Origin: an uncultured Candidatus Marinamargulisbacteria bacterium | Lineage (GTDB): Bacteria; Margulisbacteria; Riflemargulisbacteria; GWF2-35-9 | Assembly: GCA_903897765.1 (NCBI GenBank) | Contig: CAIUCY010000073.1 | Coordinates: 1 to 37,534, forward strand | DNA length: 37,534 nt | Reading direction: 5' to 3' | Part shown: piece by piece, positions 21,672-24,935 of the stretch | Position numbering within the stretch: position 1 is the stretch's first letter | How the letters are laid out: each line of letters starts with the position of its first letter | Made by a program: the position numbers and the translations under genes | Notes under the pieces: generated by a model | Databases searched by the model: none | Told to the model about the DNA's origin: nothing | Seen by the model: the letters and a program-made list of their open reading frames with translations, nothing else

Positions 21672-21802
21672 CAATAATCCCCGGGGGCATCAGCCAATTG
21701 TAAGACGATAGGTGGCAACTCAGGTGGGCGAACCGGATTTTTGATCTGGTTGAGTCGCTCCTGCATGAGCCATGATTGGATATCGAGGTCGACGGGAATC
21801 AT
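21671..21802 (-). CDS. 43-residue coupled small protein
   Basis: This reading frame fills the gap between its two larger neighbours exactly. Its ATG (21802-21800) overlaps the upstream stop as ATGA, and its TGA (21673-21671) overlaps the downstream ATG as TGATG. The product begins MIPVDLDIQSW, has a short helix (WLMQERLNQIK) and a Pro-rich acidic end (PVRPPELPPIV ... LADAPGDY). Double stop/start overlap is typical of genes translated in series, which is the main evidence. No known family was recognised. It could be a chaperone-like partner or coupling peptide for the large proteins (inference). Confidence 0.6.
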   Translation of the reverse strand: MIPVDLDIQSWLMQERLNQIKNPVRPPELPPIVLQLADAPGDY

Positions 21803-22671
21803 GCGGTGAGTTGTTTGGATTGACTCAATATAGCTGCTAACAAATACCCTTCAGCTTTCAAATTCCTCGCACCGAGAGATGCTTGATTGCTAGTCTCTTG
21901 GGAAGGATTCTTATCTGAATTTGCTATTAGTTCATTAATGAGAAATTCTAATAATATTTGTTTTTTATCAATTCCCTTGTTTCTCAACTCGGCATTCAAG
22001 GCGATGTTCATATCGGCCGTTGGGGTGCCCCCTTTTTTTAATACAGCGATCATATCCATTAATGTTTTGTTCTCCCGTAGCGCTTGCAATTTTTTTTCAA
22101 TATTTTTTTCCTCAGCTTTTTTTGCCATCTGTTTCAGGTTTTCTTTGTCTTTGGCTGAATTTTCTTCAATGGTTTTGACGAATTGTTTGACTGCTTCTTC
22201 TCTCACTTCCATCGGCATCTTAAGAATTTGAGCGAGAATATCGCGACACCACTGTTGTACCGCCGTATCTTTGGACGTTAACATGCCCATAAATTTTGTA
22301 GCTATAAAGGAGTTGCCTTTTTTTAGCTTGAGACTGATCGTGCCATCGTCTTTCTTTTCAAATTCGGTAGCACCCATCTCTTTAAGAGTATTAATCGCTT
22401 GCTCATCAACCCCCATTAAATTCAAGAACTCAGCAACCGCATCCTCACCCTTTGACGCAGTCGTCATGAGTTTGTCGGTTTGCTGCTTTGATAAAACGAA
22501 GGTGATCGGGATAATACTCCCCGACAGGTTTGTAAAGGTTGCTTTCAAAGCCCCATCCAAAGAGGTAGTAATGTCAAGTGAGCCGGAGTTCGTCTTGAAT
22601 GTTTTTTCAGACTTTTTAGCATTTGCTTGAGGAATTCCCGCTAGAGCAGATACATTTGCAGGACCAACCAT
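21799..22671 (-). CDS. Hypothetical protein, 290 residues, first gene of unknown operon
   Basis: The ATG at 22671 is chosen because AGGGGGAG lies five bases before it; a longer frame from 22758 lacks a good site. Residues 1-30 (MVGPANVSALAGIPQANAKK) are polar and Ala/Ser-rich. Residues about 30-130 look beta then helical (GSLDITTSLDGALKATFTNLSG). Residues about 165-215 are charged and helical with coiled-coil character (EENSAKDKENLKQMAKKAEEKNIEKKL split over the region). The C-terminus is helical. No signal peptide or transmembrane segment. Not recognised. The region is visibly more A/T-rich than neighbouring nadA, and both large genes of the operon share the soluble, low-complexity-tailed style. 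Confidence 0.7.
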   Translation of the reverse strand: MVGPANVSALAGIPQANAKKSEKTFKTNSGSLDITTSLDGALKATFTNLSGSIIPITFVLSKQQTDKLMTTASKGEDAVAEFLNLMGVDEQAINTLKEMGATEFEKKDDGTISLKLKKGNSFIATKFMGMLTSKDTAVQQWCRDILAQILKMPMEVREEAVKQFVKTIEENSAKDKENLKQMAKKAEEKNIEKKLQALRENKTLMDMIAVLKKGGTPTADMNIALNAELRNKGIDKKQILLEFLINELIANSDKNPSQETSNQASLGARNLKAEGYLLAAILSQSKQLTA

Positions 22672-22760
22672 ACACTCTCCCCCTATCTTTTCGACTGTAA
22701 ATTTATTGTGCCCAATATTTGCGATCTTAAACCTGCTTTTTTGAAATCCGGTTAACATGT

Positions 22761-22772: not shown

Positions 22773-23681
22773 ATGAAAGACATCGACACGATCAGGGCGA
22801 TTAGGCAGCTGAAGCAACAAAAAAACGCCATCATTTTAGCCCATAATTATCAGCGCCCCGAGATCCAAGAACTGGCTGACCTCGTCGGCGACTCGCTGGA
22901 TCTTTCCCGTCGAGCAGCAGCCACATCGGCGGAGATGATCGTATTTTGCGGGGTTCGGTTTATGGCTGAAACGGCCAAGATCCTTGCTCCTCAGAAAACC
23001 GTCCTCCTGCCCAATCACAATGCGGGTTGTCCGATGGCCGACATGGTCACCGCGGACGATGTCATTGCTATGAAGGCGGCACACCCTTCCGCTACGGTCG
23101 TTTGCTACGTCAACACCCCTGCAACGGTTAAGGCCGAGGCTGATATTTGCGTGACCTCCGCCAATGCCGCCACGATCATCGAACGCTTGCAAACCGACGA
23201 GATCCTCTTTTTTCCCGATAAAAACCTTGCTGCATGGTGCCAACGATTCACGACTAAAAAAATCATCGCTTGGGACGGGTATTGCTACGTTCACAGTCGC
23301 TTTTCGGCTGCCGAGGTTGCGGCTAGTCAAGCTCGATTCCCTGACGCCGTTTTACTTGTCCACCCCGAATGCCCTGCTGACGTGGTCGATCTCGCCGACG
23401 AGGTGCTTTCCACCAATAAAATGGTCGCCTTCGCTACCGCGTCGAACGCCAAGCAATTCCTCATCGCAACCGAAGAAGGTATCATTCATCGTCTTCGACG
23501 TGAAAACCCTGACAAACAGTTTTATGCCGCCGGAAACGCCAAGAGCTGTTTTAATATGAAAAAAACCACACTCCAAGATATTTATCTGGCTCTCCTCAAA
23601 GGCCGAACCGAGATCAACCTTGACCCCACCATTATGGATCGCGCCCGCCACTCGCTTGAAGAAATGGTTAAGTTTGGATAG
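22773..23681 (+). CDS. nadA: Quinolinate synthase A
   Basis: 302-residue [4Fe-4S] enzyme that condenses iminoaspartate with dihydroxyacetone phosphate to quinolinate for NAD synthesis. Family segments: AIILAHNYQRPEIQELAD (about 18-35), FCGVRFMAETAKIL with the first cluster Cys, YVNTPATVKAEADICVTSANA with the second, and AGNAKSCFNMKKTTL with the third. Triplicated-domain length is normal. nadB and nadC are not in the window. It is transcribed divergently from the unknown operon. The 144 bp downstream hold a nested inverted repeat before mnmA. Confidence 0.95.
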   Translation: MKDIDTIRAIRQLKQQKNAIILAHNYQRPEIQELADLVGDSLDLSRRAAATSAEMIVFCGVRFMAETAKILAPQKTVLLPNHNAGCPMADMVTADDVIAMKAAHPSATVVCYVNTPATVKAEADICVTSANAATIIERLQTDEILFFPDKNLAAWCQRFTTKKIIAWDGYCYVHSRFSAAEVAASQARFPDAVLLVHPECPADVVDLADEVLSTNKMVAFATASNAKQFLIATEEGIIHRLRRENPDKQFYAAGNAKSCFNMKKTTLQDIYLALLKGRTEINLDPTIMDRARHSLEEMVKFG

Positions 23682-23705
23682 GCGCCTCACTTTCACTATC
23701 CTTGA

Positions 23706-23810
23706 AGCAAGAACAATGCCTCGCCAAACAGATCGACACGACGTCGATCACTTTTCAACCTGTTCAGGACAGGACGGTTTGAAAAGTTTAAAGAGGCTAT
23801 TGTTCTTGCT
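23706..23810. repeat. Nested inverted repeat between nadA and mnmA
   Basis: Outer arms 23706-23722 (AGCAAGAACAATGCCTC) and 23793-23810 pair over 17 bp with one bulge. Inside are two further hairpins: GATCGAC/GTCGATC (23731-23737 with 23743-23749, loop ACGAC) and CTTTTCAA(A)CC/GGTTTGAAAAG (23751-23760 with 23776-23786, one bulge) around CCTG...CAGG. A cloverleaf-like cruciform or RNA fold is possible. It has no T-tract typical of a terminator. Confidence 0.65.
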
Positions 23811-23825
23811 AGAAAGTTTAAGACG

Positions 23826-24935
23826 ATGAATGTCGTTGTGGGTCTAAGTGGTGGGGTGGATTCTGCGGTTACCGCGCATCTGCTTCAACAACAAGGCCAC
23901 TCGGTTATCGGCGTGCACATGAGTGTATGGTCGCCATCGCACCCACAACCTGATACTTCGACCCTTCGACAAGCGCAGGGTCCAACGCCACACCAACTAG
24001 CAAGAGAGGCGTGCTATTGCCCAGGGGACACCCGCGACGAAGCCGACGCCGCAGCCATTGCCAAACGACTTGATATTCCCTTTCATATCCTAGATGTCAG
24101 CGCGGATTATGCCACGAATGTACTTGATTATTTTGCAAGCGAATACGCCGCTGGGCGCACCCCTAACCCCTGCATTGCTTGTAACCAAAAGATAAAATTC
24201 GGTGCCCTGCTTCGCGAAGTTGAAAAAGCCGGTATCCCGTTTGATCGCTTCGCCACGGGTCATTACGCGCAGGTATCCCTTGACTCTGTTTCAAGCCGCT
24301 ATTCCCTCAGACGAGCCGTTGACCGACGTAAAGACCAAACCTATTTTATTTATCGTCTATCTCAAGACCAATTGAGCCGTTGCGTCTTCCCTCTGGGTAG
24401 CTATGAAAAAAACGAGATCAAAGTCATTGCACGAAACCTCGGATTGGCAGTAGCTGATAAACCCGAAAGTCAGAACTTCATCAACGGCGACTATGGCTAT
24501 CTCCTCAAAGAAACGCCGCTTCAAGGGCCGTTTGTCCTAGAAGATGGCACCATCCTAGGCACCCATCGCGGGATCGCCCATTACACCATCGGACAACGTC
24601 GCGGATTAGGCATCGCATGGACGGAGCCTTTGTTCGTTATCCGTATCGACGCCCCGACGAATACCGTTGTTTTGGGCACAGGTGATTCACTTTTTGGCCA
24701 TCGCCTCATTGCGACGGATTGCACATGGTCAAGCATCGCCGCCCCAACAGCACCGTTTACCTGCTCAGCAAAGATCCGCTATGCCAGTCCTGATGTCGAG
24801 GTTGATGTCACGCCCATTGATGAGAGTCGCTTCGAAGTGTCGTTCCATTCACCGCAAAAAGCTATCACGCCAGGGCAGTCCATTGTCTTGTACGATGGGG
24901 AGATCGTTTTGGGTGGTGGGATTATTGCGTTGTAA
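23826..24935 (+). CDS. mnmA: tRNA-specific 2-thiouridylase MnmA, atypical
   Basis: 369 residues. The PP-loop GLSGGVDSAV (residues 6-15) activates U34 of Glu/Gln/Lys tRNAs with ATP. TPNPCIACNQKIKF carries C116 and C119, then FATGHYAQV and a C-terminal beta domain (GQRRGLGIA...). Two oddities. First, the segment that normally reads SQ(D/E)ICF, with the sulfur-carrying Cys (C199 in E. coli), is shortened to ESQNFINGDY (214-223), so that Cys is absent. Second, about 20 extra residues (near 38-60, including TLRQAQGP) are encoded by a REP-like palindrome. C63 and C65 occur in ACYCPGD. It may use a cluster-based sulfur transfer (inference). There is no Shine-Dalgarno. Confidence 0.88.
   Translation: MNVVVGLSGGVDSAVTAHLLQQQGHSVIGVHMSVWSPSHPQPDTSTLRQAQGPTPHQLAREACYCPGDTRDEADAAAIAKRLDIPFHILDVSADYATNVLDYFASEYAAGRTPNPCIACNQKIKFGALLREVEKAGIPFDRFATGHYAQVSLDSVSSRYSLRRAVDRRKDQTYFIYRLSQDQLSRCVFPLGSYEKNEIKVIARNLGLAVADKPESQNFINGDYGYLLKETPLQGPFVLEDGTILGTHRGIAHYTIGQRRGLGIAWTEPLFVIRIDAPTNTVVLGTGDSLFGHRLIATDCTWSSIAAPTAPFTCSAKIRYASPDVEVDVTPIDESRFEVSFHSPQKAITPGQSIVLYDGEIVLGGGIIAL
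23961..23981. repeat. REP-like palindrome inserted in frame in mnmA
   Basis: Arms ACCCTtCG (23961-23968) and CGcAGGGT (23974-23981) flank the loop ACAAG, with one mismatch. The CTTCGACAAGC-CAGG core resembles a palindromic repeat dispersed in many environmental bacterial genomes. It is read as LRQAQGP in the MnmA frame. Confidence 0.55.

Follow-up and report, generated by a model that had tools for sequence, protein, structure and literature searches.

The mnmA locus and its palindrome

The window, meaning the whole analysed stretch of 37,534 nt, corresponds to contig C73 of a 2.16-Mb genome in 250 contigs (82% complete). The genes of interest are ordered nadA, then mnmA, with mnmA convergent with bioB, and the match to the MnmA family spans the full 369-aa open frame. 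The features considered here are as follows.

23826–24935, + strand: mnmA, tRNA 2-thiouridine(34) synthase, 369 aa (NCBIfam NF001138, 381 bits, and TIGR00420, 323 bits, both above cut-off)
23931–24011, + strand: coding sequence for residues 36–62, the MnmA loop of variable length between W35 and the invariant C63 (lengths compared in 107 rows; pLDDT 55–57 at residues 41–60)
23944–23973, + strand: segment missing from the same-genus mnmA (30 nt; end positions ambiguous by about one base)
23957–23968, + strand: left arm of the extended palindrome (inverted-repeat pair I6)
23961–23981, + strand: REP-like palindrome ACCCTTCGACAAGCGCAGGGT, translated TLRQAQG (21 nt; core CTTCGACAAGCGCAG at 23964–23978)
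23974–23985, + strand: right arm of the extended palindrome, which occurs in the sister genome too

A sequence-only reading of this DNA had placed a palindrome within mnmA and had proposed that it is translated as TLRQAQGP without breaking the frame. Both points were confirmed: the palindrome lies at 23961–23981, its arms could be extended to 23957–23985, TLRQAQGP is its in-frame translation within MnmA, and the frame stays open with a full-length family match. The extended arms are 12 nt each, are complementary at 10/12 positions and enclose the loop ACAAG, and positions 1–4 outside the core all pair. The palindrome is one base away from the core CTTCGACARGCTCAG, and this change of T to G (GCT to GCG) is synonymous. 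Folding of 23950–23990 as single-stranded DNA gave −6.2 kcal/mol (z −2.0 versus shuffles), indicating a modest hairpin, and no Rfam family matched in 23600–24100 at E up to 1.

The gap between nadA and mnmA is 144 nt in the window versus 9 nt in the sister genome. It contains a strong nested palindrome (23706–23810) with a 17-pair outer stem and two inner hairpins, which gave −31.6 kcal/mol folded as DNA (z −8.5 versus shuffles); its inner core CCTGTTCAGGACAGGAC has one further exact copy in the genome, where the outer arms differ and still pair. Elsewhere in the window, an open reading frame of 319 residues on the minus strand (21799–22758) was without an NCBIfam match.

Length and structure of the MnmA loop

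The nearest genome is that of a sister species of the same genus (G001), whose MnmA is 94% identical over aligned residues; MnmA of the relatives beyond it shows about 46–50% identity. Relative to the sister, the window's gene has 30 extra nucleotides in frame, equivalent to the 10 codons QPDTSTLRQA. The earlier estimate of about 20 extra residues was too high, because the W35–C63 loop is 27 residues long in the window, against 17 residues in the sister and a commonest length of 13 (35/107 rows; range 2–33; ORF filtering retained 106 of 109 loci; L008 and L037 come from one genome). In the relatives G002–G004 the loop has 13–19 residues.

An AlphaFold2 model built with 52 sequences had a mean pLDDT of 90.6, with 55–57 at residues 41–60. 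The loop is thus a low-confidence segment in a confidently predicted fold, which fits a flexible loop.

The cysteine directly after the loop, C63, and those of C116-x-x-C119 are each invariant in 52/52 rows (24148–24157; residues 63, 116, 119, 214–220). The usual second catalytic cysteine of MnmA, as in the E. coli enzyme, is missing from this protein, in which residues 214–220 read ESQNFIN where many rows have SQEICF; Bacteroidales-like rows resemble the window here. This protein could be of an iron-sulphur type of MnmA.

The repeat family in the genome and the phylum

The exact 18-mer of the window occurs once in its genome. Allowing at most one mismatch to CTTCGACARGCTCAG revealed five copies, on contigs C27, C73 (mnmA), C161, C169 (alaS) and C237. 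The proposal of a dispersed repeat therefore stood for the core with its variable outer arms and did not stand for the exact 18-mer; nor is the core confined to a single place, as the family occurs several times in the genome. Two of the five, those in mnmA and alaS, are read in frame within housekeeping genes with tRNA-related functions, and the copies on C27, C161 and C237 had no covering open frame of at least 120 codons. A high-copy REP in this genome was considered and rejected: there are only the five copies, and with up to two mismatches the genome gave 15 matches versus 12 for the reversed control, the 10 added at two mismatches being at background level.

Counting the core CTTCGACANGCNCAG gave four sites in the window's genome versus none for the control, and 8 in the sister, 18 in G003 and 31 in G013. 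Across the phylum the core was over-represented, with 109 sites in 22/55 genomes versus four for the reversed control. The sister, which lacks the full mnmA insert, thus carries its eight copies elsewhere, so that the insert is not shared by a repeat-free relative. Just outside the core, the first and second base positions are variable and are nevertheless complementary in 64/70 and 59/70 distinct copies (shuffle maxima 40 and 46 in 2000 shuffles); the 70 are not independent of one another, and near-identical copies of G003 and G013 are among them. Several open frames start or stop beside the repeat, and such copies may therefore be untranslated. Not every copy in an open frame can be counted as an insertion: the G007 match CTTCGACAAGCACAG (L146), in a protein that we take to be FliI-like, looks like ordinary conserved protein sequence.

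We consider it very improbable that the mnmA palindrome is a chance product of drift in the loop rather than a copy of the repeat. It does have one core mismatch, and calculations from base composition alone lead one to expect 0.30 words within one mismatch of CTTCGACARGCTCAG somewhere in the whole genome; the same calculation gives, however, 1.5e-4 in mnmA and 6e-7 once the four complementary flanking pairs are added, and the palindrome falls exactly on the indel between the congeners. These comparisons support the assignment of the palindrome to the dispersed CTTCGACARGCTCAG repeats, carried in frame by a housekeeping tRNA-modification gene.

REPINs and RAYT-mobilised REPs are dispersed hairpin repeats, and the repeat described here resembles the latter in being a dispersed hairpin in a genome with one Y1_Tnp (PF01797) gene. 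That gene (L191, G000:C27:11600–14664) shares its contig with one REP-like copy. Among the eight genomes G000–G007 PF01797 was matched only in the window's own (1/8; the assemblies may be incomplete, and earlier presence is possible). Unlike the situation with RAYT-mobilised REPs, no Y1_Tnp match was obtained in the sister or in G003; copy number does not track the transposase, because both have more copies of the core.

A second in-frame copy in alaS

The gene carrying the copy on C169 is one that we take, from its protein sequence, to be alaS. Both members of the genus have NPSTSSGQAHDK in frame at a place where six relatives (G002–G007) have 4–7 fewer residues, and this distribution points to insertion of the repeat in the common ancestor of the two species. 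The copy reads CCTCGACAAGCTCAG in the window's genome and CTTCGACAAGTTCAG in the sister, each one synonymous change off the exact core.

Counting the mnmA copy, the coding copies show three departures from the core, all of them synonymous; random substitutions would give this with a probability of 0.022. Although few, the three changes lean toward constraint at the protein level; with a single change in each copy there is little ground for claiming selection, and the synonymous excess would also fit a mild constraint on the peptide. The proposal that the added residues are used to adjust the loop beside C63 and are maintained by selection could draw on these synonymous changes and on the position of the loop next to an invariant cysteine, but the sister has lost ten of the residues with its gene intact, other genomes do without them, and the model predicts no firm structure for the loop. 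We therefore give this proposal very little credence.

An unrelated repeat in the same loop

In G013, a genome of the same phylum and another class, MnmA has 20 extra residues in the same loop relative to its congeners G008 and G023. At the DNA level this in-frame insert consists of a double-hairpin repeat some 60 bp long; G013 has 29 further matches to it at E up to 0.001, and its sequence shows no relation to that of the window's repeat. Because the window and G013 carry unrelated repeats there, palindromic repeats have survived in the MnmA loop at least twice among the genomes examined. The longer MnmA loop of G052 was also considered as a repeat and was set aside, since no second copy was found in that genome.

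Among the copies of the G013 repeat (L210–L229), some lie within partial tRNA-gene copies beside an intact tRNA-Gly (L216) or tRNA-Cys (L222) gene, and others abut tRNA-Pro (L227) or tRNA-Leu (L226) genes. The outer arms of this repeat stay similar, and its inner hairpins vary.

Origin of the mnmA copy

At the site of the 30-nt difference the sister's sequence is CACC-CGCAGGGTCCAACG, in which the palindrome is represented by its right half (CGCAGGGTCC) without the left. The sister thus lacks the 30 nt and is still not a clean empty site, and its sequence ACCC-GCA-GGGT makes a small hairpin on its own. The view that a repeat had entered the gene was right as to the kind of element; a simple gain, with plain presence in one species and absence in the other, did not hold, since the sister keeps this right half. 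Microhomology at the breakpoint amounts to at most one base. The block to the right of the indel did not prove unusually conserved: its run of eight identical codons ranks third by length within mnmA, and in 89% of shuffles the maximum run is expected to reach eight or more.

The probable course of events is that a REP-like element was inserted in the ancestor of the genus, was tolerated in a loop and was then partly lost, in frame, in the sister. A dispersed REP-like hairpin with the core CTTCGACARGCTCAG would have entered mnmA of this ancestor within the codons of the length-variable loop. It would have met a reading frame free of stops and a loop that accommodates changes in length, and so would have been translated (TLRQAQG) and tolerated. 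The window's species would have retained the whole palindrome with its one synonymous core change, and the sister would have lost 30 nt, beginning slightly to the left of the element and reaching its middle, leaving the right half. The element would then most likely be without a separate role in MnmA, a neutral passenger retained only through selection for an open frame. We infer the order of these events, the neutrality of the element and its arrival by transposition. In favour of this history are the coincidence of the element with the 30-nt in-frame difference between the congeners, the over-represented core with its paired outer arms, the alaS copy in both congeners, the other repeat in the MnmA loop of G013 and the tolerance of that loop for different lengths. 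Against it, the sister's 17-residue loop is within the range of the family and could be ancestral. The mismatch of the mnmA copy also counts against it, as no other of the 109 core sites has G at this place, and so does the microhomology of at most one base at the breakpoint. The direction of change is a matter of probability, the comparison within the genus covering two genomes, the window's and the sister's.

The reverse direction, in which the sister-like site is ancestral and 30 nt were gained in the window's lineage only, appears unlikely. A left half-element or a template-switch product would have arrived beside a pre-existing GCAGGGTCC and completed the palindrome; the sister does already have the right arm with its small hairpin, and its loop is of a length usual in the family. 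The gained piece would, however, have had to deliver CTTCGACAAGC, an exact match to the left of the core, together with its arm to the very spot already holding CAG and a complementary arm (about 6e-5 for seven such bases, as a rough estimate of 4 to the power −7), and a plain template switch predicts exact complementarity, which the 10/12 match of the arms does not show.

Quite doubtful is the idea that the repeats enter the loops of small hairpins pre-existing in the target DNA, so that the element brings nothing but its core and the outer arms belong to the host. If true, it would explain why the outer arms vary and still pair in nearly all copies (64/70 and 59/70), why the sister's ACCC-GCA-GGGT resembles an empty hairpin, and how palindromes with no relation to each other came to share the MnmA loop in the window and G013.

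Relation to known intragenic repeats and implications

In PMC3733652, the intragenic REPs tagged with GTAG or CGTC are described as small palindromes that are mostly intergenic, with some wholly within ORFs and translated, among them REPs in genes encoding tRNA synthetase and tRNA pseudouridine synthase. The window palindrome is like these in being in frame and translated in a tRNA-related gene. It differs from them, as they are described there, in ending in neither tetranucleotide (both are absent from 23957–23985 on both strands), in having about five copies in its genome instead of hundreds, and in having no transposase tied to it. The same text describes different REPs at about the same site in recB of two Xanthomonas species (PMC3733652), and the sharing of the MnmA loop by two unrelated repeats is similar. 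The likeness to Rickettsia palindromic elements (RPE) that the sequence-only reading had drawn is supported: by their description in PMC3733652, these too are palindromes in frame in housekeeping ORFs that leave the gene open. The mnmA element is probably unlike RPE in sequence, and it differs from them in its host, in its few copies, and in adding 10 residues relative to the sister, RPE-1 elements being longer palindromic insertions as summarised in that source.

Our literature search returned no paper with CTTCGACAAGCTCAG; for LRQAQG, GTCGAAGGGT, CCTTCGACAAGCTC and FDKLRQAQ nothing relevant was found, judged by titles and abstracts, and for Margulisbacteria and repeats nothing was relevant by title among the matches listed. 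In-frame translated palindromic repeats are already known from Rickettsia and other bacteria (PMC3733652), and the mnmA case is a further example of that phenomenon.

This example extends the known occurrence of translated palindromic repeats in proteins to an uncultured phylum and to one more tRNA-modification gene. The alaS copy adds a second case in which the DNA drifted synonymously and the repeat-derived peptide stayed. Because two unrelated repeats occupy the same MnmA loop, the data suggest that protein tolerance, more than the element's choice of target, decides where such repeats survive. For annotators, stretches resembling TLRQAQGP and PSTSSGQ are possibly repeat-derived.
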